Assembly (NCBI GenBank): GCA_019119895.1
Contig: DWWD01000048.1
Coordinates: 1 to 64,000, forward strand
Origin: Candidatus Anaerostipes avistercoris
Lineage (GTDB): Bacteria; Bacillota; Clostridia; Lachnospirales; Lachnospiraceae
Direction: 5' to 3'
Length of the DNA stretch: 64,000 bases
The notes beneath the pieces are model-generated. The model saw only the letters and a program-made list of their open reading frames with translations. It was not told the origin of the DNA and searched no databases. Shown here in pieces: positions 17,232 through 35,254 of this stretch. Positions within the stretch are counted from its first letter, which is position 1. Each line of letters opens with the position of its first letter. Both the position numbers and the translations under genes were made by a program.

Positions 17232-17273
17232 AAAAGAACAGTCGCAAAAATATTAGGATTCAGACAGCTGTGC

Positions 17274-17302
17274 TTGTATTTTACACTCTGATAAGATATA
17301 TT
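17274..17302 (+). promoter_or_regulatory. Probable promoter of the 14-gene envelope operon
   Basis: TTGTAT, 17 bases, TATATT. It lies about 60 bases before the ATG of the first gene and is the only good sigma-A-like promoter I see before the series of tightly spaced genes to 34.3 kb. It also argues against upstream in-frame starts of the first gene. Confidence 0.55.
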
Positions 17303-17362
17303 ATAGGAAGAGTAAATGCGAGGGAAATCGACATATTTCAGACGGATTTGGAGGACAATGAA

Positions 17363-18922
17363 ATGGACAACTACAGGAAAAGAATCAGCACACTGAAAAT
17401 GATTATCCTGATTATGTTTGCGGTAACCGTATTTGTGACCCTGCAGTTCGACTACGGAATGATGGAACTGGCGATCAATACGGTCTTTCTGGCTGCCATG
17501 GCGCTGATGACCAGCTATGCGCTGCAGCATGGACTGGATCAGATGAATGCTTATACAAGAGATATAGAAACTATGATACGGGAACTGGAAGATAGTAAAG
17601 ATGACTGCGGCGGCGACAGAGAGAAACTGGAAGCCAGGGTGCTCGGTGTCGATGCATTTATAGAAAATCAGGACATGAAAGAACACTATGAAGCGTATTG
17701 TGAAGCATACCGCAGGAAAAGCGCGGCAGGCTGCAATATTACGGACTTTTTAAATTTTGATCAGCTGACGGAAAATTTGTCTGTGAGATTCTGTCAGATT
17801 CTTCCGGGACTTATGACGGCAATGGGGATTCTGGGAACCTTTCTCGGACTTGCCATTGGCCTGACGAATTTTGACTTCAGCTCTTCCCAGTCGTTGGGAG
17901 AATCTATTCAGATCTTTATTTCCGGAATTAATATCGCGTTCTACACTTCTATTTACGGAATTGTTATTTCTATTTATATGAACAGTTTTTATAATTCAGT
18001 GGAAGAGCGGTTTGAAGAAAAGCTGATGAAACTGGAAAAGTGCTTTGATAAGCTTGGAATGAACCAGTCAGAGCAGAGCATGTGGGCGCGGCTGTATGAA
18101 GAAGAGAGAAGCCAGACCCGGTCTCTGGATCAGCTGAACAAAGAATTTGCCAGTCATCTGGCGGATGTACTGGGTGAGAGGCTGTCTAAATCTTTTAATA
18201 TGACCAATTCAAACATTCAGAATCTGATGGGGCAGATTCATGAGAGAGAAAATTCAGCTTTGGAGCAGATGGCAGGCAGTTTTCTGAAGAATCTCAACAG
18301 CAGCATTCAGTCTGATTATGCGTCTATGGCAGAGACGGTGGGAAATCTGGAGAAGAATTTCCAGACGCTGGGAGAATCTGTGGGATATCTGAGCCAGTGG
18401 CAGAAGGAAATGACCGATGAGATCCGGAAATTTGTCGCTGAAGTAAGTGAATCCAATCGAAGGATGGAAGAACTCACTGTTCAGAATATGGAGCAGATGC
18501 GCCGTTTTCATGACACGCTGCAGGGTTTTTCCAGCTCTATGGAACAGGCAGAGGGGATTAATGAGAAACTTTCCCGATATCAGGAAGAATCACAGTGTCA
18601 GCTGCAGCAGATGGAATCACTGACCAAAGAGCTTAAGAGAGAACAGGAAAAACAAAAAGAGGATTCTATTGATTTAAAATGGATTCAACAGGAAATCAAG
18701 CTTGGACAGGAGAAGATCAATTATCTCCTGGATCAGATCAACGAATTAGAGAAGAAAGAAAATAACAGCAAAGAAGCAGAGAGGATCCATGAAGTTTTGA
18801 AATCTTTGAGCGGCGAAATAGAAGAGACAGAGAAGCATCTTCTGGACGCCATAGAAAACACAACACTGCGCGGCAAAATCCGCAGTTTCGGAAGTCTTTT
18901 TAATAAGGAGAAAGAGGCATAG
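17363..18922 (+). CDS. MotA/TolQ/ExbB-like proton channel protein with long coiled-coil tail (ZorA-like)
   Basis: A 519-residue membrane protein. Four hydrophobic segments lie near residues 13-29, 38-54, 145-168 and 187-207. The second pair carries the MotA/ExbB signature: LPGLMTAMGILGTFLGLAIG followed by GINIAFYTSIYGIV. Residues 210-500 are hydrophilic and helical, rich in Glu, Gln and Lys, which predicts a long cytoplasmic coiled-coil tail as in ZorA of Zorya defence systems. With the next gene it should form an ion-driven stator. ATG 17363 has GGAGGA seven bases upstream. No flagellar genes are near, so this is not motility MotA. First gene of the operon. Confidence 0.82.
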   Translation: MDNYRKRISTLKMIILIMFAVTVFVTLQFDYGMMELAINTVFLAAMALMTSYALQHGLDQMNAYTRDIETMIRELEDSKDDCGGDREKLEARVLGVDAFIENQDMKEHYEAYCEAYRRKSAAGCNITDFLNFDQLTENLSVRFCQILPGLMTAMGILGTFLGLAIGLTNFDFSSSQSLGESIQIFISGINIAFYTSIYGIVISIYMNSFYNSVEERFEEKLMKLEKCFDKLGMNQSEQSMWARLYEEERSQTRSLDQLNKEFASHLADVLGERLSKSFNMTNSNIQNLMGQIHERENSALEQMAGSFLKNLNSSIQSDYASMAETVGNLEKNFQTLGESVGYLSQWQKEMTDEIRKFVAEVSESNRRMEELTVQNMEQMRRFHDTLQGFSSSMEQAEGINEKLSRYQEESQCQLQQMESLTKELKREQEKQKEDSIDLKWIQQEIKLGQEKINYLLDQINELEKKENNSKEAERIHEVLKSLSGEIEETEKHLLDAIENTTLRGKIRSFGSLFNKEKEA

Positions 18923-19705
18923 ATGAGCAGACGGAAAAAGAGAAAAAACAGGAAGATCATGGACTACTGGCAGTCCTATTCTGATATGATGGCAGCTCTG
19001 CTGCTGGTTTTTATTTTGATTGTCTTTGCGGTGATTCAGAGACTGCAGACACAGCAGGATGAGATTGCGGCGAAACAGGCAATCGTGGACAAACAGAAGA
19101 TTACCATTGAAAAACTGGGCGGAGATGCGGATGGAGGCATGACCAAGTTTGAAGAGATGGAACAGAAGGTTTCCAAGATCATCGGTGTAAAAGCTGAAAT
19201 CATAGAAGATTTGAGGAAAGAATTAAACAACGTGAATCTTGAGATTGACGGACAGACTGGCGCGATCCAGTTTGATTCTGAAATCTTGTTTGATACAGAC
19301 AAGGCAGATTTGAAGACATCCGGGAAGAAAGAACTGGACCGGTTTATGAAAGGATATTTTAAAGTTCTTCTGAATGATAAATTCAGGAATCATATTGCGG
19401 AGATTATCGTGGAGGGACATACGGACACAGACGGAAGCTACGACTATAATCTGGAATTATCACAGAGAAGGGCGCTGAATGTGGCAAAATATTGTCTGAA
19501 TAATAAAAATCTGGATTTGGATACAGAGCAGAAAGAACAGCTGAGGAAAATTATAACTGCCAACGGGCGGTCTTTCAGCAATCCGATCCGCAAAAACGAC
19601 GGGACTATAGACAAGGACAAATCCCGCAGGGTTGTATTTCAGTTTCGACTGAAAGATGATGAAATGATACAGCAGCTGCAGGATATATTAAACGGAAAGG
19701 AATAA
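18923..19705 (+). CDS. MotB/OmpA-like peptidoglycan-binding stator partner (ZorB-like)
   Basis: A 260-residue protein with a basic N-terminal tail and one transmembrane helix near residues 20-38. The helix starts SYSDMMAALLLVF and carries the acidic residue (Asp21) that binds the ion in MotB/ZorB proteins. A helical linker follows. Residues 115-250 form an OmpA domain with LFDTDKADL, EGHTDTDGSYDY and the LSQRRA motif, which bind peptidoglycan. It starts directly after the stop of the channel gene. Together they make a MotAB-like motor anchored to the cell wall. Confidence 0.87.
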   Translation: MSRRKKRKNRKIMDYWQSYSDMMAALLLVFILIVFAVIQRLQTQQDEIAAKQAIVDKQKITIEKLGGDADGGMTKFEEMEQKVSKIIGVKAEIIEDLRKELNNVNLEIDGQTGAIQFDSEILFDTDKADLKTSGKKELDRFMKGYFKVLLNDKFRNHIAEIIVEGHTDTDGSYDYNLELSQRRALNVAKYCLNNKNLDLDTEQKEQLRKIITANGRSFSNPIRKNDGTIDKDKSRRVVFQFRLKDDEMIQQLQDILNGKE

Positions 19706-19737
19706 GGCTGACTTAAACTGTTGGAGAGGGAATGCAA

Positions 19738-21735
19738 ATGAAGAAATTGTCAAAAAGAGAATTCATAGAGAGTGTTCGGAAACTAAAAGGGGAAACGGTC
19801 CTGTGGCTGGTTATTTTGTATGAGGGTCTGCTTCTGGTGCCTGCTTTAGTAAAAGGAGTCAAGGGAAGCGGAAATGACGCGGTTTATTTCGGCTATCATT
19901 ATCTGGAATTTTTTCTGATCCTTGCCCTGGGGACCATTCTTTTTTATTTTGTGACTCTGTACATATTAGAGGGAAATCAGAAAATCGTATTGTATTCTTC
20001 CATTCTCCTGACCTGGGGAGTTTTTATGGAACTTCTCCTGCTGTTTCCGGGAGATGACGATCTGAATTCAGGATTTATCATAAGAAATATCATTCTTCTG
20101 CTGGCGGCCTATGTTTCAGCGGTGCTGGCGGGAGTGCTGTTTATCAAAATAAGAAAATTCAGGCAGGACAGTGTCAGCTTTCTTCTGGCGTGTCTTTCGG
20201 TCCTGTTTTATATTTTGCTGATGTTATTCGGTGTCGGTCCGGGCGGGCAGGCAAATCCTGAAGCCAGGACGAATCTTCCGTTTCCGGTGGTCGGTTCCAT
20301 TCCGGTAACGGAAATATTAAAAGTTATTTTTCTGATGGTACTGGTGTGTCTTCTGTGTAAACAGGCAAGGTCAAAGGAAGAGAAAAGGAAACGTCTGATG
20401 CTGTCAGCTCTTTATACCGGAATCAATATGCTCGGAATGCTGGCGATCAATGAGATGGGAAGTCTGCTGATCGTACTGCTGGTGTATATTGCATTTATCG
20501 TAATCTACATGCAGGAAATCAAATATTCGATTGCAGTGATCGCAGCCGGGGTTCTGATCGTACTGTCTGGAGTGATGGCCGGAGAAATGATGACGGATTC
20601 CATCAACAAAAAAATCAGCGCAAAAGAGCTGATCTCCTGTTTTTATGACAGAGAAGTGCCGTCCACATCCGGATATCACGGCGGCAGCGGAACGATTGAA
20701 GATTTCAGGCCGGCTCTTACGGATTATTTTGATGGAAAAAGCAGGGGAAACGACCGGAAAGTAACAGAGACTGAACTGAAAAAAATAGTGGGAAACGCCC
20801 AGGAAGATGCGCTCAGTGAAGCAGAAGAGCAGGCGGTCGAGGCACTGTTTTCAGACAAGACGGAGATTGGCTACGGTGATATGAAAGCAGCGGTTGAAGA
20901 CCGGAAAAATCAGTCCATGATGATTGCCATGAGCTATCTTTTTGCGGATCAGGGTGATAAGGAAGATTTTCTGGGAACTTACTATTTTACAAAAATATAT
21001 AATTATTATGTTAATTACGGGGACACCAATGCTCTGGAAAGATTTTATGTACCGAAATACGGAAAAGTAAAGACCAGATTCTACTGCTGGACGCATCCGG
21101 AATGGGATAACGGTGATTCCGGATATCAGAATTACCGGGCAAGGGCCGGAGTCCGGGATGGAGGACTCTTCGGCAAGGATTCTGCCGAAATCAGTACAGT
21201 GCCGAATGCAGACTCTGATATGATTTTTGTTGCCATATCAGAAATGTTCGGGAATATATGTCCGGTGCTGCTTCTGCTTTTGTTTTTCATGCTGTTTTGG
21301 GAAGGCAAGAAGATTGTGTTGTCTACAAAGCATGAATACAACAGTGGTATGGCTTTCGGTATTTCTTTTATGATCTGGATACAGGCTGTTTTCATGACGG
21401 CCAGTAATTACGGGCTTTTTCCGATTTTCGGAATGCCGATTCCGTTTATTTCCAACGGAGGAGCTTCCAAATGCGTGACTATGGCGATGATCGGGATCAT
21501 GGTCGTTATGTCTGCAGTTGAAATGGAAGAAGATGCAGTGGAAGATGAACGAACCAAGAACCGTATGGTCATATTGTCCCGGTATTATGTGACCGAGCCA
21601 TTGAAACATCTTGGGAAAGCTGTCTGGGCATTTATATGTCAGAAAGCCGGAGAATTGAAGAAGGCGGCCGTGGTGAAGATCAGGAAAAAGCTGAGGGAGA
21701 AGAGGAATGGAAACACACGCAGACGGAAACGGTAA
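19738..21735 (+). CDS. SEDS-family (FtsW/RodA/SpoVE) glycosyltransferase with large inserted extracellular region
   Basis: A multi-pass protein of 665 residues, far longer than the usual 370-430. SEDS landmarks are present in order: IPVTEILKVIF (like the PSE-x-x-K helix), NEMGSLLIVLL (like QPD-x-G), GGLFGKDSAEISTVPNADSD followed by MIF (the catalytic-loop aspartate) and GMPIPFISNGGASK. The extra roughly 170 residues, about 290-460, are hydrophilic and inserted before the catalytic loop, outside the membrane by the SEDS topology. The family polymerises lipid II with a partner penicillin-binding protein, and such a gene lies at 29592. ATG 19738 is preferred over 19732 because of spacing to GAGGG. 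Confidence 0.85.
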   Translation: MKKLSKREFIESVRKLKGETVLWLVILYEGLLLVPALVKGVKGSGNDAVYFGYHYLEFFLILALGTILFYFVTLYILEGNQKIVLYSSILLTWGVFMELLLLFPGDDDLNSGFIIRNIILLLAAYVSAVLAGVLFIKIRKFRQDSVSFLLACLSVLFYILLMLFGVGPGGQANPEARTNLPFPVVGSIPVTEILKVIFLMVLVCLLCKQARSKEEKRKRLMLSALYTGINMLGMLAINEMGSLLIVLLVYIAFIVIYMQEIKYSIAVIAAGVLIVLSGVMAGEMMTDSINKKISAKELISCFYDREVPSTSGYHGGSGTIEDFRPALTDYFDGKSRGNDRKVTETELKKIVGNAQEDALSEAEEQAVEALFSDKTEIGYGDMKAAVEDRKNQSMMIAMSYLFADQGDKEDFLGTYYFTKIYNYYVNYGDTNALERFYVPKYGKVKTRFYCWTHPEWDNGDSGYQNYRARAGVRDGGLFGKDSAEISTVPNADSDMIFVAISEMFGNICPVLLLLLFFMLFWEGKKIVLSTKHEYNSGMAFGISFMIWIQAVFMTASNYGLFPIFGMPIPFISNGGASKCVTMAMIGIMVVMSAVEMEEDAVEDERTKNRMVILSRYYVTEPLKHLGKAVWAFICQKAGELKKAAVVKIRKKLREKRNGNTRRRKR

Positions 21736-22438
21736 CTGGAAACTGACCAAATGCAGGCTCCGGCAGTATCTCAGGAAAATGAGTGACAGAGACAGGGAAA
21801 AGATGACCGTTCTCTGGAGCAAGCCGGATCTGGTTGACCGTGTATATTATGAATACTATCAGGCAGGTGAGCCGGGATACCGGCAGTATATGGACCGGTA
21901 TGAGGCAAATCAGAAATTCCTTGACCGGATCCGGGAGATTTTCCGGGAAGATATTTTTGAGCTGGATGCGGCAGTAACTTTGGAATTGTGGGAAATCCTC
22001 GATGAAAATCATGCATCTCAGGACAAGCATGTTTTGTCCAGGATGAGACAGAGCCTTGCGGGAAAACAAAAAGATGGTGTGCGGAAAAAACTGCAGAAAT
22101 ACGCTAATCCCGGAATTGTGATCCGGGAAGAACATATCAGGGCGTATCTGGAACTGCTGACAGAGCAGAAAAAACGGGAACGTCAGCTTCAGGAAGCGAA
22201 AAAGAGAATTCCTGACAAAATCCTTTTGTACCTGCAGACACAAGGAGACAGAATCCCGGCGGTTCATGATGGATGCAGAATCCTGGATTACTGCGCCGAA
22301 CAGATGAAATCGTTTCATTTTCCAAAAGAGGAGACCCTGTTCTGGAAAGATACACTGGTTGCGGCCGCCACAGCCGGGTCATCAGAAATATGGACAGAAA
22401 TTAAGAACTTAGTGACAGAAGAAGAGATGGGAGAGTGA
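21707..22438 (+). CDS. Unknown soluble operon protein
   Basis: A 243-residue protein of unrecognised family. It starts inside the last 29 bases of the SEDS gene, with AGAGG as ribosome site, so translation is coupled. No signal peptide, membrane segment or nucleotide-binding motif is visible. It is charged and almost entirely helical by composition, with aromatic-rich segments such as RVYYEYYQAGEPGYRQYM and FPKEETLFW. A repeat-like or adaptor fold is possible. Its fixed place between the SEDS and coiled-coil membrane genes suggests a cytoplasmic component of the same machine. Confidence 0.75.
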   Translation: METHADGNGNWKLTKCRLRQYLRKMSDRDREKMTVLWSKPDLVDRVYYEYYQAGEPGYRQYMDRYEANQKFLDRIREIFREDIFELDAAVTLELWEILDENHASQDKHVLSRMRQSLAGKQKDGVRKKLQKYANPGIVIREEHIRAYLELLTEQKKRERQLQEAKKRIPDKILLYLQTQGDRIPAVHDGCRILDYCAEQMKSFHFPKEETLFWKDTLVAAATAGSSEIWTEIKNLVTEEEMGE

Positions 22439-22440
22439 TT

Positions 22441-24171
22441 ATGAAAGGAAGAGTGAATATAAGAGGGAAAGTGTTCAGAGTGCTGATCATGCTGTTCTTA
22501 ACATTCGTATTTGCTCTGCCTGCAGGTGCAACAGAACTTCGGGCGGATGAAAGTTACCCTTTTGAAATGTACTATGACCCGGAAGAAGATGGATGGGCCA
22601 ATGAGAAACGTGTCAATATGGACGGCGGACTCAGCTTCACAGTTCCGGATATGAGCATCCGGTCTATGGATTTAATCGTATATGGCACCGGCAGCCCGAA
22701 ACTGCAGGAATTAAGAAATGAGGCGGGCAGTCAGGTTGATTTTGAAGAAGAACATACCGATGATGAATCCTATGCCTGCTATAAGGTACAGGATGTTTCA
22801 GAAGGGGACTGGAATCTGACTGTCACATCCACAGATATGACCAGCACAAAAGTATATATTATCTATAACAGTGCGATTACGGCCAGGTATGCCATCGAGC
22901 AGGAAATCGGAAATCCGGACAGCGGATACTACCAGGCGCTGATCCGGCTGTATAACACCGATAATAAACAACTGAAACTCAGCAACCGGAAGGTGGAATA
23001 TCTGGTAGATGACCGGTCGCTGATGAGCGAGACAGAGAAAAACGATGATTTTAACTGTTACCTGGGAGCGGCAGGGCTGGATGAAGATGATATGAAGATG
23101 CTGGGGGATAACTATTCTTTTCATGTGACAGCAACGGCAGAAGACGGCTCCATTGTTCTCCTGAGAAGCAGTCATGCTTCTGGCAGTGAATTTGATGATA
23201 TCAAGGATAAATATAATCCATCCTGGTGGCAGAGATTCAGGGCAAAACCGGCGGGGGAACAGAGAAATATTATTATGCTGGCAGTGCTGCTGTTGATCAT
23301 CGCTGCTGTTCTTATTATATTTATTCGAAAGAGCCGATTTTGGGAAAAGAAGAGTATCCGGGAGGAAAGCGAAAAAAAGAAACGGTATGAATCTGCGTTG
23401 AAAAATATCAGGGATGCAGGTGTTGAGCTGAAACGTTTTAAAGAAACGGCGGAAGAAATTGAAGATATCCTGAAAAAGCTGGAGCCTTATATCTATCTGA
23501 TCGAGGGAAGCATTTCACAGAGGCAGAGGATGAAATACAGCAATATGCTGCAGCCGGAATTTCTGGATGAGATGGAAAAGACATACTGCAGAGCGAAAGA
23601 AAAGATGGATGAGTGGACCAGGGCACAGGAGGCAAAGAGAAAGCTTCCGGGAGACGAAGAAAAGAAAGCTCTGCAAAATATCTCCAAACGCCGTACTGTG
23701 ATTCAGGAAAACGCAGAAGATCTGGCACAATACAGGGCGCTTCTTGGGGATTTGAGAGAGGAAATCGAGAAATATCAGGGACACAGGATATACCGGGATA
23801 TTTATGTTCTGGTTCAGAGTGAAGGATGTCTGTATTACGGGAGCATTGTCGCTAAGGATCTTGGACTTCCGAGAAAATCCGGCATTCAGAACCTGAATCT
23901 CCAGAAAATGAAAGACGAAAAGGGAATCAGGAAAGTTCAGTTCAGTGAATTTGATTTTGGAGGTCTTGTTCTGGGAATCGGCGTGACATCCGACGAAGAA
24001 CGGCAGGAAGTCGTATTATTCTCTGATCGAAAATTAAGGAGCACGACGGTGGATGATCTGGAGGATATGGAAGAGAAGTCAGTTCTTGGTCCGTATCAGT
24101 ACCGCAATATAGAAGGGCTGGATCTGTATGTCAGCAATCCTGAAAATATGTTCCGGATTGTCAGACAGTAA
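22441..24171 (+). CDS. Signal-peptide membrane protein with extracellular domain and cytoplasmic coiled coil
   Basis: A 576-residue protein of unrecognised family. Residues 1-29 form a signal peptide ending FALPAGATEL. About 235 residues outside the cell follow, beta-rich, with an immunoglobulin-like appearance. One membrane helix (IIMLAVLLLIIAAVLIIFI) follows, then a long charged coiled coil of roughly 140 residues. The last roughly 130 residues are globular and may be a separate domain (VLVQSEGCLYYGSIVAKDLG). Type I topology would link an outside event to the cytoplasm. The start overlaps the previous stop region; ATG 22441 suits GGGAGA best. Confidence 0.8.
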   Translation: MKGRVNIRGKVFRVLIMLFLTFVFALPAGATELRADESYPFEMYYDPEEDGWANEKRVNMDGGLSFTVPDMSIRSMDLIVYGTGSPKLQELRNEAGSQVDFEEEHTDDESYACYKVQDVSEGDWNLTVTSTDMTSTKVYIIYNSAITARYAIEQEIGNPDSGYYQALIRLYNTDNKQLKLSNRKVEYLVDDRSLMSETEKNDDFNCYLGAAGLDEDDMKMLGDNYSFHVTATAEDGSIVLLRSSHASGSEFDDIKDKYNPSWWQRFRAKPAGEQRNIIMLAVLLLIIAAVLIIFIRKSRFWEKKSIREESEKKKRYESALKNIRDAGVELKRFKETAEEIEDILKKLEPYIYLIEGSISQRQRMKYSNMLQPEFLDEMEKTYCRAKEKMDEWTRAQEAKRKLPGDEEKKALQNISKRRTVIQENAEDLAQYRALLGDLREEIEKYQGHRIYRDIYVLVQSEGCLYYGSIVAKDLGLPRKSGIQNLNLQKMKDEKGIRKVQFSEFDFGGLVLGIGVTSDEERQEVVLFSDRKLRSTTVDDLEDMEEKSVLGPYQYRNIEGLDLYVSNPENMFRIVRQ

Positions 24172-24191
24172 GAAAAAGAAAGGAGTTCCAA

Positions 24192-25673: not shown

Positions 25674-28192
25674 AATATGGATTTAACCAATATTATTATA
25701 CTGCAGCGCCGGATCTTTTCAATAAAAGCAGAAAGAGCGGATGGGGAATCTTCGGATCCAGTACGCCGGATCATAATATAGAAAATGAGAGGGCGGAACA
25801 GATTTCAAAAGACTGGGTCCCGATGCGGCTGGAGGAAGAAAAGGCTTTTCCGATCGAATACGTCATGTATTATGAAGACCGTTATATTGCCGGGGGGACC
25901 ACCTCCTGCAGTACGCTGATCGAGGGAGACAACCGTCCGAATACCTGGACTCATGTCATGATTCCGGAGAAAAAGGGAGAAGAGAGTTTTCTTTCCTGCC
26001 TTTCGGTATCTTCTTTTGACAAAGTACAGCGAGAGGATCAGAAAATACGGCTGAACAAGGTGATGATTCCCTACGACAGAACATTGGAGACCAGATCCGG
26101 CTTAAAGAGCTGGCAGGAAGAATGCACCGATGCATACTTTCTGAAGCTGCTTCTTTCCGGTCTTTCCGGAGCAAAAAGAATTCTGATTACAGATCATGAT
26201 CTGTTGGAGGATGATTTTGAGGCATACCAGCTGCTGGCGAGGAAAATGATGTATCATATTTATTATATGCTGCCGGGCTGCTGGAGAAAGGAACTGAATT
26301 TTATTACTCCGATGATGCCGAAATATTTCCTTCTTTCCTCAGAAAAACCCAAAGGGGCAAGATTCTATTTTGGTCCGGAAGATCAGCATGAACAGTATGA
26401 TCAGGTAATTTCCATGCAGCAGGGCAGGGAACTGGAAATCAGAGATTTTTATGATTCTTTACTGACCCGGATGAGCGAATTGTTTCACGAACACAATGAA
26501 CTGTATGAGGAGATTGGAAAAAAATTCCAGAAAAATAATTATGCTGCTAATGAAAAAGATTATATCTGGCATTTCATTTTTGAAATGGTGGAGAGAGAAA
26601 TACCGATTGACTGGGCAAGCTTCGGACTGGATGAGTATCAGGAAGCATACAACCAGGCATGGATGGATTCGGAGAGAAGAAATGATTTTCTGAAAATCAC
26701 AGATGTTTTGCTGGAAACGCGGGAGGATGCCGTGGTATCACCGGATTTCTTCAGCATCTACTGCCGTATGATCAGAGCTTTTTCCGGCGAAATGGATCTG
26801 AACATATGGGAGGAGGTCATTCGCCAGGCAGTCCGTTGGATGATGCAGATGGAAGGCAGGGAAGAAAACCTGCTGGAGCAGTATCTGCAGATTTTATCGG
26901 AAGCCGGGATCCGTAGTGATATCGAGGCGGAGATTCAGGGAATCGTAATGCAGCAAAGTACAGGAATCCAGAGAAAAGCGGCAGAAATTCTGGATCATCT
27001 GACAGCGGCAGACGAAATGGATCTTTGGTGGACTGCTTATTCCTCTCTGAAAGAAATATTTTCAGAAAACATAGAGCAGAAATTATCTGATCTGTTTATT
27101 CACGCAAAGAGCGTGAGCGAGAAGGAAAAAGTGCTTGATCTGGATGATCAGATTTTTGATGGGAAGGTCCGCGCAGGTCTCACAGAACGTCTCCTGAAAA
27201 AACTGAGAAATGTGACATTTCAGGATATGAAACAGCGGCAGCTGTGGGAAACAGGAAAAGAAGAATTAAAGATATTGTCGCCTGAGGAATATCAGAAGAT
27301 CCGGACAAGATTGGAAGCGGAAGAAAATAACCAGAAGAAGAATGAAGCCAGGATGGCGTCAGACGAGGAACTGCAGGAATTACTGCTGAGCGTCAATTAT
27401 TCTCAGAACAAGGAACAGTACCATTATGTGCTGGATAATATTTCATCCAGAATTTTAAAGTGCGATACACTGAAAGATGAGGTACAGTTTAATTTGTTCT
27501 GTTACTATTACATATGCTATCCGGATGCTTCCAGGGAAAAGAAGGATAAGTTCTGGCAGCTTTGCACGCTGGAATGGTTTTCGAAACTGGAACAGCTTCT
27601 GCAGGATCCGGCGGCAGAAGTACTGGAAGATGTGCTGAATTACGAAGGTATGCCTTTTGAAGGAAAATTATTCTTTCTGTATCACAGTTCCATGCAAAAT
27701 CCACTGGAAGATGCCAGAAAGGCAATCCGCAGGCAGCTGAAAACCTTTTCCACACCGGAAAGAGAGACAGCGAAACATTTCTTTTCACAGGAAAATGCAC
27801 AGGTACGCAGGATTTTGATCCAGGAGCTGAATCACTCCGATAAAAATCAGATGATCGATAATATCCAGCTGGTCATAAAAAGTGCATTCTGGATTGCGGC
27901 GGTTCTGCTGGTTTATGAAGGGATCAGTCAGCTGGACAGAATCCATCCGATTGCAGCGGTGGCGGCATGGGTTGTGATTCTGACAGTATGCCTGGTGAAA
28001 CTTCTGTTGTCGATGAAGAAGAAAAAAGAGGTGGTTCAGGACGATATGCTTTTATTTGGCGGGCTTTTGTGGATTTCCTGCGGCGCTGTGATCCGGGCGC
28101 TGTGCGGAATGATCGGTGTCGCAGTTTATCTTGTGGTGCTGCTCATCATTTCACTTGCTGTACTGCTGACGTCCAGCCGCCGGAACAGATAG
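25670..28192 (+). CDS. GAP1-like GTPase-associated membrane protein
   Basis: An 840-residue protein. The N-terminal about 150 residues (QYYYTAAPDLFNKSRKSGWG, then SSTPDHN and WTHVMI) recall the GAP1-N domain of GTPase-associated proteins, with the Q-x-x-Y-T-x-A and H-x-x motifs. Residues 150-720 are helical and charged, with no recognised catalytic motif. The C-terminus has about four membrane helices (AFWIAAVLLVYEGI, AAWVVILTVCLVKLLL and two more). So a cytoplasmic platform is tethered to the membrane. It is translationally coupled to the GTPase. The GAP1 assignment is an inference that a profile search would settle. Confidence 0.68.
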   Translation: MKYGFNQYYYTAAPDLFNKSRKSGWGIFGSSTPDHNIENERAEQISKDWVPMRLEEEKAFPIEYVMYYEDRYIAGGTTSCSTLIEGDNRPNTWTHVMIPEKKGEESFLSCLSVSSFDKVQREDQKIRLNKVMIPYDRTLETRSGLKSWQEECTDAYFLKLLLSGLSGAKRILITDHDLLEDDFEAYQLLARKMMYHIYYMLPGCWRKELNFITPMMPKYFLLSSEKPKGARFYFGPEDQHEQYDQVISMQQGRELEIRDFYDSLLTRMSELFHEHNELYEEIGKKFQKNNYAANEKDYIWHFIFEMVEREIPIDWASFGLDEYQEAYNQAWMDSERRNDFLKITDVLLETREDAVVSPDFFSIYCRMIRAFSGEMDLNIWEEVIRQAVRWMMQMEGREENLLEQYLQILSEAGIRSDIEAEIQGIVMQQSTGIQRKAAEILDHLTAADEMDLWWTAYSSLKEIFSENIEQKLSDLFIHAKSVSEKEKVLDLDDQIFDGKVRAGLTERLLKKLRNVTFQDMKQRQLWETGKEELKILSPEEYQKIRTRLEAEENNQKKNEARMASDEELQELLLSVNYSQNKEQYHYVLDNISSRILKCDTLKDEVQFNLFCYYYICYPDASREKKDKFWQLCTLEWFSKLEQLLQDPAAEVLEDVLNYEGMPFEGKLFFLYHSSMQNPLEDARKAIRRQLKTFSTPERETAKHFFSQENAQVRRILIQELNHSDKNQMIDNIQLVIKSAFWIAAVLLVYEGISQLDRIHPIAAVAAWVVILTVCLVKLLLSMKKKKEVVQDDMLLFGGLLWISCGAVIRALCGMIGVAVYLVVLLIISLAVLLTSSRRNR

Positions 28193-28205
28193 GAGGGGAG
28201 GCAGG

Positions 28206-28721
28206 ATGCTGATATTTTTACAGAGGCTGTGGGTTATGATTGTTGTAGACGGTTTTCTTCTGTACATCATAATCCGGCTGCTTCGAGAGAAAACGGAAGG
28301 AAAGAAGAAGGATAAGAAAGTCGGTCCTGCACCGAAACTGGAAAAATACATAGGAAGGCTTCTGGATTATGAGTTCAGCGATGAGCATGGACAGGCACAG
28401 TCAGGCAGCATAAAAGAGTATCCCTGTCTGCTGGGGCGTGGGAAGAACAGTGATGTGAGGATCCGGGAGACGGAAAAGAATGGTTATTATTTTCTGGCAA
28501 GAGAATTTATCCAGGTTACGGAGACGGCAGATGGGTTCCGTGTGACCAGATGCAAAAGGAATCAGAGAAAGCAGGAACTTATTTCCGGAACTGCGGATGG
28601 AAAGAGATTTAAAGATGAAGTCAGTATGACATTTAAATGGAACATTATGATACAAATTACGCCATTTATGACATTAAAACTTGAAAAACACAGACGTCGT
28701 ACTTCTACGATGACAAGGTAG
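28206..28721 (+). CDS. Membrane-anchored FHA-domain protein
   Basis: A 171-residue protein with one N-terminal transmembrane helix (LWVMIVVDGFLLYIIIRLL) and a cytoplasmic forkhead-associated domain. The FHA core is YPCLLGRGKNSDVRI, followed by a loop where the usual Ser/His pair is weak (FLAREFIQV). FHA domains bind phosphothreonine peptides. Here the kinase 3 kb downstream is the natural source of ligands. It starts 13 bases after the GAP1-like gene. Confidence 0.78.
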   Translation: MLIFLQRLWVMIVVDGFLLYIIIRLLREKTEGKKKDKKVGPAPKLEKYIGRLLDYEFSDEHGQAQSGSIKEYPCLLGRGKNSDVRIRETEKNGYYFLAREFIQVTETADGFRVTRCKRNQRKQELISGTADGKRFKDEVSMTFKWNIMIQITPFMTLKLEKHRRRTSTMTR

Positions 28722-28732
28722 AGGAGAAAGAT

Positions 28733-29572
28733 ATGTTAAGATATATTGTAATTGCCGTAATCGTGCTGATCTGCATCGGATTTCTGATCGGCTATCTGCT
28801 TTTAAAATGGAAAGAGGATGGAGCCGGTATCTTTGAAAAGAAAGATGGGTTTCAGGGAGATTTGGCAGATGATGATATTGAGGAGCTGGAAAAAATGAAA
28901 TATGGCGGAGAGAAACCGGCGGAGCCGGAAGAAGAAATCCGGGATTTCCCGGAAGAAAGTGACGACAGGCCGACTCTTTACAATGAACCGGAAACATCAG
29001 AAAAGGACGATTACAAAGATTTTGTTTTTATGGATGAACCTGCAAAAAACCCGGAAGAAGAAAAAAAGACGAAGCCGTTTGCCGGTTTTGAGGAAGAAAA
29101 ACCGATTCTTGATTACCGGATCATCATCGGCGGGAAAAGCAGAGAGGGCAGCCTGTCTGCGGGAAAAGAACTCTACCGCATTGGAAAAAACAGGCACTCG
29201 GATATTATCCTGGAAACCAGTGATGATCATGTGAGCAGAGATTTTCTGACACTGGAACCGGTCAGCGGAGAAAATATTTTCTGCCTGAAGCGGGTGAGAG
29301 AAGATTTTGTTCTTCCTGTCTGGTCAGAGGAAGAAGGAAAATGGGAGCCGCGCCGCGGCGGGATTTTATTTGGCGATGAACAGCAGATCATCATCGCATT
29401 AACGCAATGGAAAAAAGTGACGGACAAAAATATTTCAAGGCTGGAACTGGCAGCGCCGGGGTGTCTCCAGGAGGAAGAACCGGAAGAGACAGCCTATGAT
29501 TTCCAAGAGGAAACGCCAGTTCCTGAGGAGGATGACCTGGAAATATACTTTGGGGATCATTTTGACATCTAA
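28733..29572 (+). CDS. Membrane-anchored FHA-domain protein with acidic linker
   Basis: A 279-residue protein: one transmembrane helix at residues 2-23 (YIVIAVIVLICIGFLIGYLL), then about 100 residues of strongly acidic linker. The FHA domain carries LYRIGKNRHSDIIL and DDHVSRDFLTL, so the phosphate-contacting Arg and Ser are present. An acidic C-terminal tail follows. It is an intact phosphothreonine reader, unlike its smaller neighbour. Threonines in the linker (PTLYNEPETSEKD) could themselves be kinase targets, as with actinobacterial Fha proteins. The spacing of 11 bases supports one transcript. Confidence 0.83.
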   Translation: MLRYIVIAVIVLICIGFLIGYLLLKWKEDGAGIFEKKDGFQGDLADDDIEELEKMKYGGEKPAEPEEEIRDFPEESDDRPTLYNEPETSEKDDYKDFVFMDEPAKNPEEEKKTKPFAGFEEEKPILDYRIIIGGKSREGSLSAGKELYRIGKNRHSDIILETSDDHVSRDFLTLEPVSGENIFCLKRVREDFVLPVWSEEEGKWEPRRGGILFGDEQQIIIALTQWKKVTDKNISRLELAAPGCLQEEEPEETAYDFQEETPVPEEDDLEIYFGDHFDI

Positions 29573-29591
29573 GTAAAGGAGAATCAGAGAT

Positions 29592-31010
29592 TTGAAAGAT
29601 TACAGACGAAAAAGAATTCAAATTATTTCTGCTGTCACGCTTGTTCTGGCAGGGATCATGATTCTATCCATTTTGTGGACAACGATCCGCAATACGACCC
29701 ATGACGAGACCTATGCGAACCAGCAGAAAGAAGAACTGGTGGCCGAAAATAACAAAAGTGTACTGTGCGGAGATATTATTGACACAAACGGCACGGTGAT
29801 CGCTTCCGCCACGAAAGACGGAAACGGTCAGAAGATTCAGTATGAAGATCCGTACGCATACACATTGTTTGTAGGACTGACGGAGGGAAAGGACAGTCCG
29901 GAAACCTACGGACTGTATGAACTGTATCAGGATGAGCTCTATTCTACGGTGAAAGACGAAGAAAAAGGGGCGACTATTCAGATGTCAATCGACAGCAGTC
30001 TCCAGAAATATGCTTATAATCTCTTAAAGAAGCAGAACAAGAGAGGCTCAGCCATTATTATGGATGCAAAAACAGGCGCCATTAAGGCCTGCGTCTTTAC
30101 ACCGTCAGTGAACGGAAATAATCTTCCGTCCACGTGGAAAGAGGATCTGCAGAAAAACGGCGGTTTTATTAAGCCGTTGCTGAACCCGGCTGTTCCGGGA
30201 AGTATTTATAAGATCACCACCAGTGTCGGGATCCTGGAGGAAGGACTGGAAAATGAAGTAATTCAGGATAAGGGAAGTGTCAAAATCGGAAATACGACTC
30301 TGAGTAATAGCGGAGGAGCATCTCACGGAAAAATCTCACTTCCCCAGGGATTTTCAAGCAGCTCCAATGTGTATTTCGGAACTATGGGTCAGAAGTATCT
30401 GAAACAGGAGAAACTGGAAGATCTGGCGGATTGTTTTCTGATCGGTAAGAATCTGCGGCTGGACTTCGGAACGGTGTCTTCCACATTCTACACAAATAAC
30501 AAAAAAACGGAATTTACCGATATCCAGAATGCCTGGACAGCCATCGGGCAGAATCAGGTGCAGCTGACCATTGTCAATGCAGCCATGATTGCGCAGACCA
30601 TTGCAAATGACGGCGTTATGATGAAACCTTACGCGGTTCGTTCCATTTATCATGGATCCGGACAGAACAAGACATATGAGATGAGGACAAAACCTCAGGA
30701 ATATAAAACAGTAACAGAAAAAACAGTTGCGGACAGACTGCAGCAGATTATGAAAGATACCGGAGAACAGTATACCGAGCGGCTGACCGGTAAGAATACG
30801 ATTAAAGCAGGCGGAAAAGAGATTTCCATCGGATTGAAGACCGGTACCGGAGAAATCGGAAATAATAAGAGAAACAGCATCTGGATCACATCCATGGCGC
30901 CGGCGGACGATCCGGAGTATGTGATCGCAATGAATATTTATGATTCGGATGAGGCCGGACAAAGCCTTCTGGGCGACATTATTTCTCTGTATCAGCAGGC
31001 AATGAAATAG
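29592..31010 (+). CDS. Penicillin-binding protein (transpeptidase)
   Basis: A 472-residue class B-like penicillin-binding protein with an N-terminal membrane anchor (residues 10-30). The transpeptidase triad is intact: SIYK (Ser204-Lys207), SSN (257-259) and KTGT (416-419). The N-terminal part is short for the class, similar to actinobacterial PbpA. It crosslinks peptidoglycan and is the expected partner of the SEDS protein at 19738. The start is TTG at 29592, with AAAGGAG about ten bases upstream; no ATG lies near. Its position between the FHA and PP2C genes mirrors actinobacterial pbpA clusters. Confidence 0.9.
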   Translation: MKDYRRKRIQIISAVTLVLAGIMILSILWTTIRNTTHDETYANQQKEELVAENNKSVLCGDIIDTNGTVIASATKDGNGQKIQYEDPYAYTLFVGLTEGKDSPETYGLYELYQDELYSTVKDEEKGATIQMSIDSSLQKYAYNLLKKQNKRGSAIIMDAKTGAIKACVFTPSVNGNNLPSTWKEDLQKNGGFIKPLLNPAVPGSIYKITTSVGILEEGLENEVIQDKGSVKIGNTTLSNSGGASHGKISLPQGFSSSSNVYFGTMGQKYLKQEKLEDLADCFLIGKNLRLDFGTVSSTFYTNNKKTEFTDIQNAWTAIGQNQVQLTIVNAAMIAQTIANDGVMMKPYAVRSIYHGSGQNKTYEMRTKPQEYKTVTEKTVADRLQQIMKDTGEQYTERLTGKNTIKAGGKEISIGLKTGTGEIGNNKRNSIWITSMAPADDPEYVIAMNIYDSDEAGQSLLGDIISLYQQAMK

Positions 31011-31019
31011 AGGTGGACG

Positions 31020-31799
31020 ATGACAGGGCAGATTTACAGTTTGATACGAAAAAACGGCAGGGCAGAAAATCAGGATTATCTGTTCTACGAAAAGAAAAAA
31101 TTCAATGACAACGAAGAAATGACGGTGTTCGGCGTTTGCGACGGTATGGGAGGAATGGAAGAGGGCGACCGGCTGTCAAGACTGACGGCATGGACCTTCG
31201 GAGCCTATTTTTCACAGAAAATCGTGCCGTTCCTGGCAAAAGACAAAGCGGTGGTCCCTGAGCGGGAGGAAATCCGGCAGATTCTGGAGCGTACGGTGGA
31301 GTCTGTACAGCGTACGATTGCAGCATACATAAAGAAACACCGTATATCGGGCGGCAGTACGCTGACAGCCGGCGTTATCTGCAGAAACAGTCTTCATGTG
31401 ATCAATGCCGGAGACAGTCCCTGTTATTTGATCGATATTACAAACGATTCCGTAATCCTGGTTTCCAATGTGGAAAACTGTGCGTATGAAGGGCTGGCAA
31501 AAGGAATCTTTACGGATAAGAGATCCCCGGAATTCGAAAGAGCGTCCTGTTATCTGACTAATTATATCGGCGCCCCGGATTTTAAGAAACCGGAAACCTG
31601 CAGTTATCAGATCTTTCCGGGGAACCAGATTCTGGCGGGCAGTGACGGGCTGTTTGGAAATCTGGATGAGGGGGAACTTCTGCTGGCAGCAAAAGAACTG
31701 CCGGAAGAAAAAATTCTCGAGCGTATCGCAGGAAAATCAGCTTCCATGGGAGAAACTGACAATCAGAGCGGGGTTTTGTGGATATGGAAAAACAGATGA
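31020..31799 (+). CDS. PP2C-family serine/threonine phosphatase
   Basis: A soluble 259-residue PPM phosphatase. All metal-binding motifs are visible: RAENQDY, VCDGMGGMEEGD, GGSTLTAGVI, INAGDSPCYLI, GSDGLFGNL and the final GETDNQSG. It removes phosphate from Ser/Thr residues and should counter the kinase encoded next. It starts ten bases after the transpeptidase stops. It lacks the membrane helix and extracellular tail of mycobacterial PstP, so it is a cytoplasmic enzyme. Confidence 0.92.
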   Translation: MTGQIYSLIRKNGRAENQDYLFYEKKKFNDNEEMTVFGVCDGMGGMEEGDRLSRLTAWTFGAYFSQKIVPFLAKDKAVVPEREEIRQILERTVESVQRTIAAYIKKHRISGGSTLTAGVICRNSLHVINAGDSPCYLIDITNDSVILVSNVENCAYEGLAKGIFTDKRSPEFERASCYLTNYIGAPDFKKPETCSYQIFPGNQILAGSDGLFGNLDEGELLLAAKELPEEKILERIAGKSASMGETDNQSGVLWIWKNR

Positions 31800-31815
31800 G
31801 ATGGGAGGAAGCACC

Positions 31816-33273
31816 ATGCTGGAACGAGGAAAGATTTTCAGAGCCGGAAATGGGAAAACGGAAAAATTTCTTTGTTATCTGAAGGATGTCGATGATGAAC
31901 TTGACTACAGGAAAACAGGAATTGCCTTTGAGGCATGCAAGGAACTTGCCAATGGAGGACGAAAATGCGCATCCTGCCCGGAAAAATGTCAGGAGACAAA
32001 GAAGTATTATATAAAAGCAATTGATAAACAAAAACTTATCGAGAAACGCAGACAGCTGGGAAAACAGAGGTTTGAACATAGTGAATACTACGTTTATTTG
32101 TGTTGCCATTTGAAGGAAAGAGATCTGGTGGCACTTTTGAGAGAAGAACTGATTCCGGCGTATCTTGTGCCGCCCCAGTATATTTTTAATCTGCCGGAAG
32201 GAGAAAGCAGGAATGTAAAGATAACAGGAACAGCCTATCCGTACCGGGGCAGAAGCTGGCAGGATGTTATGAGAGAATGCCGGGGTATTATGAAGCCGGA
32301 AGAGTTTCTTCTGCTGAAAGAAAAGGTTATCTTTCAGCTGCTATATGCAGTAAAGGCTTTGCATCAGCTTCCGGGAGATCTTGTGCACCGGGATCTGAAG
32401 CCTTCCAATATTACCATAGAAAAATCAGGCGGCAGTTATGCGGATGATCTGCTGGTATCCATCATTGACTGGGACTGGGTCTGCATCAAAGAATCCGCGG
32501 ATGATCCTTTTGCGGACATTGCAGGAGGAACCAGCGGATTTGCACATCCCAACAGTCTGATCAGGAATCAGAAAGGAATTTTAAACGCTATTCCTTCCAG
32601 AAGATGGGATTATTATTCTGCGGCGCTGACTATTTTTTATATTCTGGAAGAACAGTATCATTTCAGAGAAGATGAAAGATACTGGGAGGATCGGAAAGCC
32701 TTTTCTCTCAGAGAAATGCCAAAAACGAAAAAATATCTGGATGAATGCTGCAGAGATGCTGCACAAAGTCTGGGATGCGCGCAGATGCTTCGCCGGATGC
32801 TGCAGAAGATGATGGGAGAAGACCTGGAATACAGAAATCAGTATCAGGATATTCAGGATGCGATCGACGACTTTGAACAATACTTATATGTGAGACATAG
32901 CAAAGAGTTTTCCAAATATTTTCGTTCCCGGTATCTGCTTCACAATTCAGATCAGCGATATTGCCGGGATCGTTTGATGCAGATTTGCTGCAGATACAAA
33001 AATGGGACGAAAACAGAGAATTTCTATTATGCATTAGCGGAGAGAGATGCCGTGACAGTGGAACTGGAAGGAAAGAAGACGGTGATTTTGTACCGCTGCG
33101 GAACAGAAATACTCCATGGATTTTTGCTGTCAGATGACTGGAGATGGAGTGACAGCAAACAAATTGCAAAAGATATGAGAGAGAGGGAACGGCTGTCTGG
33201 CGGGAAGGAAAACGGAGAACTGGAAATCTTATATTTAGCGGAAGGAGCAGATGATGAAACGGATTTGTTTTGA
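31816..33273 (+). CDS. Soluble serine/threonine protein kinase with cysteine cluster
   Basis: A 485-residue kinase-fold protein. The catalytic loop HRDLKPSN (191-198) is intact. The metal-binding DFG is replaced by DWD (218-220), keeping the aspartate, and GGTSGFAHPN stands for the activation-segment end. The glycine loop is degenerate (RAGNGKTEKF). A cluster C41-x9-C51-x2-C54-x3-C58 sits in the N-lobe and could bind zinc or an iron-sulfur cluster. There are no PASTA repeats or membrane helix, unlike PrkC/PknB. ATG 31816 follows GGGAGG by seven bases. Activity is likely but not certain given the N-lobe changes. Confidence 0.82.
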   Translation: MLERGKIFRAGNGKTEKFLCYLKDVDDELDYRKTGIAFEACKELANGGRKCASCPEKCQETKKYYIKAIDKQKLIEKRRQLGKQRFEHSEYYVYLCCHLKERDLVALLREELIPAYLVPPQYIFNLPEGESRNVKITGTAYPYRGRSWQDVMRECRGIMKPEEFLLLKEKVIFQLLYAVKALHQLPGDLVHRDLKPSNITIEKSGGSYADDLLVSIIDWDWVCIKESADDPFADIAGGTSGFAHPNSLIRNQKGILNAIPSRRWDYYSAALTIFYILEEQYHFREDERYWEDRKAFSLREMPKTKKYLDECCRDAAQSLGCAQMLRRMLQKMMGEDLEYRNQYQDIQDAIDDFEQYLYVRHSKEFSKYFRSRYLLHNSDQRYCRDRLMQICCRYKNGTKTENFYYALAERDAVTVELEGKKTVILYRCGTEILHGFLLSDDWRWSDSKQIAKDMRERERLSGGKENGELEILYLAEGADDETDLF

Positions 33274-33862
33274 TTTTGTAATCGATGTCACAGAATCTGC
33301 TGCGGTCAATCTGCCGGCAGTCCATCTGTTTTGTGATGATCTGATCCGAAAAGGATTTCAGGATATCCTGCAGAAATTTTATTATGGCATCACTGTATTT
33401 TATGGAAAGAAGAAACCAGCCAGAATCTGCAGGTTTGAGGGAAAAATATTTACCGATCATCTCTATGAGTTTCACCGTGTGTTTGAAGAGATAGAATCCG
33501 GTTACGGTTCCATGGACGGAATCGACGATATCACCGGAGGCATCAAATGTTCCGCTGAAAAATTCCGGGATAAAGACGGGCTGAAGATCATGCTGGTTTT
33601 CTCAGATTCTTATGTAAAAAAAGACGGTTTAAAGGATATAGGAATTGTGCCTGCGCAGAAAATCTATCTCTATCTGGCATCAAAAGAAGAACTGGGAGAT
33701 GTGGAAATGACCCCATTCTGGGGGATTCCGATGATGAACGGACGAAACAGAGTGGATCACAGACTGAGCCCGACACTTCATCGTTTGTCTGATATTTTTG
33801 ATGTGCAAAAGCGGGAAGAACGGATGGAAGAAATTATTGCAGATATAGTCGAAGCAATGTAA
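33254..33862 (+). CDS. vWA-like domain protein
   Basis: A 202-residue protein starting with a beta strand and a MIDAS-like motif DVTES (residues 11-15, D-x-T-x-S). A threonine in DDITGGIK (Thr94) and an aspartate in LVFSDSY (Asp118) would complete the metal site of a von Willebrand A domain. It overlaps the kinase gene by about 20 bases and is translationally coupled. vWA proteins act as metal-dependent binding modules, and in conflict systems they accompany GTPases and kinases. No membrane segment. Confidence 0.7.
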   Translation: MKRICFDFVIDVTESAAVNLPAVHLFCDDLIRKGFQDILQKFYYGITVFYGKKKPARICRFEGKIFTDHLYEFHRVFEEIESGYGSMDGIDDITGGIKCSAEKFRDKDGLKIMLVFSDSYVKKDGLKDIGIVPAQKIYLYLASKEELGDVEMTPFWGIPMMNGRNRVDHRLSPTLHRLSDIFDVQKREERMEEIIADIVEAM

Positions 33863-33878
33863 GTGAAGGGAGGTGTCT

Positions 33879-34316
33879 ATGAACTTTTTACAGCATTACG
33901 AAGAGGAAGGGCGGAGCAGTCTTTCTGTCTGTTTCTGCCTCCTGGATCAAATGTCTGCAGAGGATGAGGGCAGCCTGCATGCTATACAGCGGGAGATGAC
34001 AGAAAGCTCCATGAAAATCCGGCAAAGTTATGTGTTTGGAGATCAGACGGTCAATGGGTCGGAATTTACCGAGTTTCGCTCCGGATTTTATACGAAGGTG
34101 GAAAGAGGAGCGCAGACTTATCCGGACAGTGAGGCGCTTCTTCTGGCGGCAGGTATGATAAGGAAAGAAACGCAGAAATACGGACAGACATCAGAGCACG
34201 CGAACCTTATTATGATTCTGGGAGAAAAAGCGGAAGAAAGGCAGGATGAGGACTACCGGAGAGTCAGAGACTGGCTGGAACAAGAAGCGGAAACCATTGG
34301 CTTTGATATTTTATAG
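33879..34316 (+). CDS. Small operon-end protein, possibly a degenerate vWA fold
   Basis: A 145-residue protein with alternating strands and helices (LSVCFCLLDQMS, then LIMILGEKAE). The pattern suggests an alpha/beta fold like the preceding vWA protein, but without its MIDAS residues. I do not recognise a named family. ATG 33879 is placed behind GGGAGG; GTG 33873 overlaps that site. The gene is 16 bases after the vWA gene and closes the set of envelope and signalling genes. Confidence 0.65.
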   Translation: MNFLQHYEEEGRSSLSVCFCLLDQMSAEDEGSLHAIQREMTESSMKIRQSYVFGDQTVNGSEFTEFRSGFYTKVERGAQTYPDSEALLLAAGMIRKETQKYGQTSEHANLIMILGEKAEERQDEDYRRVRDWLEQEAETIGFDIL

Positions 34317-35192: not shown

Positions 35193-35211
35193 TCGATACC
35201 TGTAACCATAC

Positions 35212-35254
35212 AGACCGGCGCATATTCTGAAAAAAATGTGTGCCGGTCTATTTC
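35212..35254 (+). terminator. Terminator of the long operon
   Basis: AGACCGGCGCATA and TGTGTGCCGGTCT pair over 13 positions with two wobbles, followed by ATTTCT. This is the first convincing terminator after 17.3 kb. Confidence 0.8.

Follow-up and report, generated by a model that had tools for sequence, protein, structure and literature searches.

A conserved 14-gene locus of Anaerostipes bearing a DO-GTPase/GAP1-like system, an accessory SEDS-PbpA pair and a ZorAB-like stator

Gene content of the block

We analysed a 64,000-nucleotide stretch of the Candidatus Anaerostipes avistercoris genome (contig DWWD01000048.1, positions 1 to 64,000; hereafter the window) and describe a block of 14 genes on its forward strand, at about 17363-34316. 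The spacing between neighbouring genes is −29 to +26 bases when the list of open reading frames (ORFs) is re-read, confirming the close-packed, same-strand arrangement reported by a first-pass annotation of this DNA, with the starts of genes 1 and 12 corrected. We class the block as a DO-GTPase/GAP1-like system to which a dedicated SEDS-PbpA pair and a ZorAB-like stator have been added. Our preferred reading, to which we give an even chance of being right, is a single operon, inherited as a unit, whose products would form a membrane-anchored module for conditional peptidoglycan synthesis under GTPase and Ser/Thr phospho-control. The ORF list was combined with family scans of the block proteins (Pfam, PADLOC, NCBIfam); membrane segments were read from hydropathy, and family names were given by motif or shape where profiles returned no match. 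The module families named by the first-pass annotation were largely right according to Pfam and PADLOC, with the FHA, vWA and GAP1 assignments depending on motifs or weak matches. The genes are as follows (TM, transmembrane segment; PBP, penicillin-binding protein).

Gene 1, 17363..18922, +, ZorA/MotA-like stator subunit with a long C-terminal tail and 4 hydrophobic segments (Pfam MotA_ExbB 3.3e-7, run on 17270-18922; PADLOC ZorA1 3.2e-25, run on 17357-18922)
Gene 2, 18923..19705, +, ZorB/MotB-like stator subunit with an OmpA-type domain (PADLOC ZorB1 5.8e-75; motifs)
Gene 3, 19732..21735, +, SEDS glycosyltransferase of the RodA/FtsW family with 11 hydrophobic segments (Pfam FTSW_RODA_SPOVE 3.2e-36)
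Gene 4, 21707..22438, +, soluble orphan, no family above cut-off
Gene 5, 22435..24171, +, membrane protein with an ectodomain, a TM at residues 279-297 and a cytoplasmic part; its counterpart in tubulin-type GAP1-N2 systems is the membrane vWA protein, whose vWA domain it lacks (hhalign E 1.9e-4)
Gene 6, 24192..25673, +, DO-GTPase whose motifs include the P-loop GKKDAGKT, YDAAGE and two CxxC pairs
Gene 7, 25670..28192, +, probable GAP1, ending in 4 hydrophobic segments; 4-base overlap with the DO-GTPase gene
Gene 8, 28206..28721, +, N-terminal TM and FHA-like domain (motif, hydropathy)
Gene 9, 28733..29572, +, N-terminal TM and FHA-like domain (motif, hydropathy)
Gene 10, 29592..31010, +, short class B PBP with SxxK, SxN and KTG, read as PbpA type (Pfam Transpeptidase 2.1e-35)
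Gene 11, 31020..31799, +, PP2C phosphatase without TM (Pfam PP2C_2 26.9 bits, cut-off 24, 4e-6; motifs)
Gene 12, 31816..33273, +, Ser/Thr kinase without TM, with a Cys4 (zinc-ribbon-like) insert and HRDLKPSN, DWD replacing DFG (Pfam Pkinase 3.9e-11, for the longer ORF that begins at 31642; PADLOC MkoA 6.4e-13)
Gene 13, 33251..33862, +, vWA-like by its DxTxS motif
Gene 14, 33873..34316, +, small soluble protein, possibly a degenerate vWA, conserved in 3 species

Judging from the upstream sequences, the most likely start of gene 1 is the ATG at 17363, downstream of a GGAGG, and not 17270 or 17274. Gene 12 most likely starts at the ATG at 31816, the longer ORF from 31642 being an artefact of the ORF listing, and for gene 14 the ATG at 33879 is likelier than 33873. 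GC content is 0.42-0.48 in the block as compared to 0.45 in the window, which holds no tRNA and no Rfam family at the gathering score. Promoter and terminator scans of the region were not decisive. We found 30 terminator-like sites as compared to a shuffle mean of 14.8 and, because of this excess and the location of several sites inside the block, a single transcript is not proven.

Conservation and distribution of the 14-gene order

By tblastn, all 14 genes occur in identical order in a genome judged to be Anaerostipes butyraticus JCM 17466 (G001, 75-92% identity) and in a third Anaerostipes species (G003, 43-83%). With the window's own genome (G000) included, the unbroken order is found in 3 of 11 Anaerostipes genomes. 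Border genes differ on both sides among these carriers: a MatE-like and a MarR-like gene on the left and a Crp-like gene on the right in A. butyraticus, a nucleotidyltransferase/HEPN-like pair on the left and an amino-acid-carrier-like gene on the right in G003 (names read from sequence). In both genomes unrelated genes separate the block from the nearest conserved flank gene, or stand where that gene would be. Because the bordering genes differ on both sides, the conserved unit is these 14 genes. Measured against A. butyraticus, the ratio of nonsynonymous to synonymous substitution rates (dN/dS) runs from 0.044 to 0.198 across the block genes (gene 1 entered one codon late), with the maximum at gene 4, showing that the genes are under selection. 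The same order in three species, the changing borders and these ratios uphold the view that the block is one inherited unit.

An arginase-family gene (34329-35249 in the window, including the hairpin described next) begins 13 bases 3' of gene 14 and may be co-transcribed with the block here. The strongest terminator-like hairpin (15 pairs, 35212-35249) lies 3' of it. The arginase-family gene is about 1 kb from the block in A. butyraticus; the G003 stretch showed none.

Recurrence of the order in relatives, which had been suggested as a check, holds within the genus for the three carriers; no whole block was found outside it in overlapping samples of 243-398 genomes, which were drawn from larger groups, so that carriers elsewhere may be missed. 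Taken as a single protein, gene 7 is present in 3 of 11 genus genomes, its own included, and in 1 of 396 family genomes (its own). A gene 5 profile matched 1 of 243 class genomes, and a gene 12 profile at E<=1e-10 likewise 1 of 243, each time the genome of the window itself. The gene 6 profile matched 3 of 398 phylum genomes, namely its own and two others with weak, partial matches. The match in G707 (locus L103) belongs to a tubulin-type system; that in G781 (locus L104) was rejected as a relative, since it has a housekeeping neighbourhood and the matched ORF reads by eye like HslU. A pattern scan of genome contigs, whose reach is limited to close relatives and which did not return G003, found only A. 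butyraticus. In the remaining 8 genus genomes the flanking Cys/Met-metabolism gene is present, with no block gene at E<=1e-8 within the fetched 13-17 kb around it.

The three carriers are one another's nearest relatives by core gene (86-91% identity vs 79% or less for the others), and for this reason inheritance looks vertical; the relatedness is taken from the identity table, the core-gene tree leaving the order of most species open. Genes 6 and 7 had no match among 72,556 plasmids; plasmid searches gave one weak match for gene 2 and, for the kinase, one weak Nonomuraea match. A pattern scan of limited reach found no gene 6 relative in viral contigs. A mobile defence island is unsupported, given the lack of plasmid relatives of genes 6 and 7 and of viral relatives of gene 6 in these searches, the near-window GC content and the close relationship of the carriers.

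Wall synthesis, phospho-control, GTPase and stator genes

The membrane and wall setting proposed from the letters alone fits the hydropathy and motifs of the block proteins, and the SEDS, PBP, PP2C, kinase and GTPase motifs are kept in 3 of 3 species. Gene 3 encodes a SEDS family member by Pfam and gene 10 a class B PBP; ADSDMIF in the former and SxxK, SxN and KTG in the latter, conserved in all three species, are the motifs we would expect of SEDS proteins and class B PBPs. Matches between the gene 3 protein and its SEDS paralogues in the genus start at 443-472, and residues of about 285-446 find no match in them. Outside the block, the best match of gene 10 is a PBP of about 500 residues (25-27% identity) that is present in 11 of 11 genus genomes, in each of which a SEDS gene adjoins this core PbpA-like PBP. 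The four core loci that we viewed read ruvA, ruvB, U32-peptidase-like, SEDS, PBP (names by eye). Because every genus genome has this core PBP and adjoining SEDS gene, the SEDS-PbpA pair of the block is accessory, additional to the core pair. Gene 10 is read as PbpA type from its length and its PDB matches, of which the best is 4mnr (2.7e-29), followed by 7rd0 (4.6e-21), three more chains labelled peptidoglycan glycosyltransferase and, in sixth place, mycobacterial PbpA 3un7 (8.3e-15).

The phosphatase (gene 11) and the kinase (gene 12) have no TM by hydropathy and no PASTA match in Pfam. The Cys4 insert and the kinase motifs of gene 12 occur in 3 of 3 species, the zinc-ribbon character being suggested by motif, and a PDB search returned three weak kinase matches. 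Genes 8 and 9 are FHA-like by motif: the pattern GRGKxxDVxI is found in 2 of 3 gene 8 orthologues and (A/S)REFI in all three, and IGKNxxSDI is found in 3 of 3 gene 9 orthologues. Neither protein has a Pfam FHA match; gene 9 and its orthologues (one partial) weakly match Yop-YscD_cpl (E 0.04, 0.011 and 0.004). Genes 13 and 14 have no Pfam match, and motif or shape points to a vWA-like protein and a possible degenerate vWA, respectively. TerY-type triads consist of vWA, PP2C and kinase genes; the block likewise has these three gene types adjacent to one another, and differs in that it contains no TerD/TerC match in Pfam.

Within the GTPase module, the gene 6 protein falls just below the cut-off of Pfam DO-GTPase2 (8.9e-6, 26.0 bits, cut-off 27). 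It aligns to the DO-GTPases of three phylum loci, L101-L103 (hhalign Prob 95, E 3.6e-8), two of them (G503, G466) scoring above the Pfam cut-off. With its zinc ribbons and the Glu of the Walker-B region, gene 6 is assigned by sequence to the zinc-ribbon DO-GTPases. At L102 the gene after the DO-GTPase is GAP1-N2 by Pfam (4.9e-42) and has no plasmid match, and tubulin-like and vWA genes are present; L101 and L103 resemble it. By its gene content the L102-type set matches the published tubulin theme. The gene 5 ectodomain aligns over 79 columns to the membrane vWA protein of the tubulin system (hhalign E 1.9e-4), scoring 37.9 as compared to a maximum of 23.2 in 100 shuffles. These alignments make genes 5 and 6 homologues of components of tubulin-type GAP1-N2 systems, and both identifications, gene 6 as a zinc-ribbon DO-GTPase and the gene 5 ectodomain as a relative of the membrane vWA protein, are newly made here at the level of sequence.

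Gene 7 is a probable GAP1. Its hhalign score against GAP1 is 27.2; the highest of 100 shuffles is 24.2, and seven other proteins of the block score 11.7-20.0. With two more GAP1-like proteins as targets, gene 7 scores 19.8 and 14.6. It has no Pfam match, and in an all-against-all comparison the pair ranks 5 of 98 (E 0.022). The assignment needs caution, because two matches that we take as chance, gene 4 to GAP1 (77 columns, E 0.012) and gene 5 to tubulin (E 0.015), outrank it there. PDB profile searches with genes 5, 7, 8, 9 and 13 gave nothing useful, and no FNIII domain was matched by Pfam in the 14 proteins.

Two other DO-GTPase loci came to light. On a Rhodococcus plasmid (NZ_CP113952.1, locus L182, 7894-22488) a DO-GTPase gene is found downstream of GAP1-N2 and near TerD/TerC-like genes (by eye), which may point to a connection of DO-GTPase systems with tellurium-type stress genes. 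Another phylum genome carries a GAP1-N1-like DO-GTPase system (L099, 5842-12086; DO-GTPase2 7e-38) with a calcineurin-like phosphoesterase and nearby transposase and intron-type genes (names by eye).

The stator pair matches ZorA and ZorB in both PADLOC and PDB, and the NCBIfam Zor models match below their curated cut-offs. The TM aspartate D21 of gene 2 is invariant in 3 species, and the best PDB chains of gene 2 are 8vvi (9e-21) and 8qyd (4e-17), which we take to be ZorB. A gene 2 profile has matches in 119 of the 396 family genomes; most have weak E-values, and we read these as MotB. Strong matches besides its own occur in 29 of the 396 at E<=7.2e-45, and 3 more, in longer frames, at 1.2e-38 to 7.3e-31. 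We fetched the loci of the best 20 of the 29 (14 of at least 19 kb; 6 shorter, at contig ends or where less was requested). The scattering of genes in relatives, which the first-pass annotation had set against its reading, was found for this pair: profiles of all 14 block genes returned only relatives of genes 1 and 2, adjacent to each other, at 20 of 20 fetched loci. ZorAB-like pairs that lack the block are therefore not rare in Lachnospiraceae. The ZorB1 model of PADLOC scores gene 2 and three such relatives alike (5.8e-75 vs 1.2e-76 to 5.9e-69); because of this likeness and the frequency of such pairs, the stator pair of the block was probably recruited from a block-less ZorAB-like source.

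The 20 loci (L045-L064) are of interest in themselves as an unexplained use of a Zorya-type motor with no block partner and no widely recurring neighbour: the stator pair excepted, any one neighbour family of 100 residues or longer is shared by 6 of them at most. PADLOC found no Zorya effector in the next gene at the 10 loci scanned; nine of these genes had no match and one matched a nuclease-type 'Effector' (2.6e-8).

Relation to known systems and proposed function

Modules of the block had been thought rarely seen together and without a described counterpart. This view is not supported, as the third theme of GAP1-N2 systems combines GTPase, GAP1, kinase, PP2C and vWA (PMC7159879), and the pstP locus combines FHA, PP2C, RodA, PbpA and kinase (PMC6554272). 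According to the passages of the first paper (eLife 2020), the third theme joins a DO-GTPase and GAP1-N2 to a zinc-ribbon kinase, PP2C and vWA and is reported from actinobacteria only. The block shares a zinc-ribbon DO-GTPase, a GAP1-like protein with C-terminal TMs in the next gene, a kinase with a zinc-ribbon-like insert, PP2C and a standalone vWA-like gene; kinase and PP2C are recognised by Pfam and motifs, the zinc-ribbon insert of the kinase and the vWA by motif. With tubulin-type systems it shares the gene 5 ectodomain. It differs in adding stator, SEDS, PbpA and FHA genes, and in having a GAP1 that is only probable and no FNIII match. The text of PMC7159879, figures and source data aside, does not mention ftsw, tolq or transpeptidase.

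The actinobacterial pstP locus contains rodA, pbpA, pknA, pknB, fhaA and fhaB besides PP2C, and its knock-down is reported to affect mycobacterial wall synthesis (PMC6554272). In common with the block are SEDS, a PbpA-like PBP, PP2C, a kinase and two FHA-like proteins. In contrast to that locus, the block kinase lacks PASTA and TM, the block phosphatase lacks a TM, the SEDS and PBP genes are six genes apart, and a GTPase module and stator are added. Zorya, for which ZorB peptidoglycan binding and ion flow are reported to be required (PMC11890865), has in common with the block its ZorA and ZorB homologues, the OmpA-type motif and the TM aspartate. PADLOC scans of the 14 block proteins and 6 flanking ones found none of ZorC-G, and membership of the block in Zorya was rejected for lack of ZorC/D, ZorE or ZorF/G effectors beside ZorAB. 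In the literature searched, with most subscription journals outside its scope, we found no description of this module combination and no characterised locus with the whole gene order, in line with that part of the first-pass annotation. What is new is the combination, together with the identifications of genes 5 and 6; the component modules were described previously.

We suggest the following order of events for a wall-synthesis module. The ectodomain protein of gene 5 would sense the state of the cell surface or wall and signal to the DO-GTPase/GAP1 switch (genes 6 and 7) at the inner membrane face. Phosphorylation, set by the kinase, phosphatase and vWA genes (12, 11 and 13), would be read by the two membrane-tethered FHA-like adaptors (genes 8 and 9), and the accessory SEDS-PbpA synthase (genes 3 and 10) would be recruited or activated as the output. 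The ZorAB-like stator (genes 1 and 2) may grip peptidoglycan, use ion flow and work beside the synthase. The module would likely serve to mend or thicken the wall locally when the envelope is stressed. In a more tentative reading, more probably wrong than right, the ZorAB-type stator, powered by ions and gripping peptidoglycan, would gate the wall synthase or drive it mechanically, with the DO-GTPase and Ser/Thr phosphorylation in joint control.

The proposal of a wall-synthesis module draws on the fixed 14-gene order in 3 species despite changing borders, the dN/dS of 0.04-0.20, the motifs of five enzyme families kept in all three species, the accessory nature of the SEDS-PbpA pair, the homologies of genes 5 and 6 and, by analogy, the pstP locus. 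Several points weigh against it. Function and contact between the modules are deduced from sequence, and the assignments to GAP1 (gene 7), FHA and vWA depend on motifs or weak matches. Block proteins also diverge faster than core PbpA: between G000 and G003 identity is 43% for gene 4, 53% for gene 7 and 77% for gene 10, as compared to 86% for the core PbpA-like PBP, and an arms race would fit as well.

Such divergence, with carriage by only 3 of 11 species, is what an anti-phage or anti-rival conflict system might exhibit. The stator or gene 5 would then sense wall perturbation, the GTPase/GAP1 pair and the kinase would set a threshold, and the SEDS-PBP pair would seal the wall or the stator depolarise the cell. 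The prediction, in the passages of PMC7159879, that GAP1-N2 systems act in conflict agrees with this, as do the ZorAB homology, with the reported needs of Zorya, and the PADLOC matches of gene 12 to the Mokosh kinase MkoA (6.4e-13) and to PD-T4-6 kinases (7.5e-7 or weaker). We nevertheless consider a conflict role unlikely, in view of the missing ZorC-G, the plasmid and viral searches, the apparently vertical inheritance and the equal scores that the ZorB model gives to block-less pairs.

Less probable again is synthesis specific to sporulation, cell shape or the cell cycle. Dedicated wall synthases are reported to serve Clostridioides sporulation (PMC10693644), and in NCBIfam gene 3 matches spoVE (82 bits, cut-off 449) and gene 10 spoVD (98 bits, cut-off 689); these matches are weaker than those to the rodA/ftsW and pbp2 models, no sporulation-specific family is above cut-off in the block, and gene 7 was not found in 8 of 11 genus genomes, which argues against a general developmental need. 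That independent envelope and signalling genes are co-transcribed here by history, forming no single machine, is the least probable reading and a very doubtful one: the stator pair does stand without block genes at all 20 fetched loci, but the 14 genes keep their order although several of them have only about 50% identity left and their borders change.

For DO-GTPase/GAP1 systems the literature passages give only a predicted role (PMC7159879). At this locus such a GTPase module is tied to a ZorAB-like motor and to enzymes whose product, peptidoglycan, can be measured, and because of this link both the role of the GTPase module and a role of ZorAB outside Zorya become directly testable. If it exists, a synthase gated or driven by the stator would be the first concrete output for DO-GTPase/GAP1 systems and would give ZorAB a role outside phage defence.

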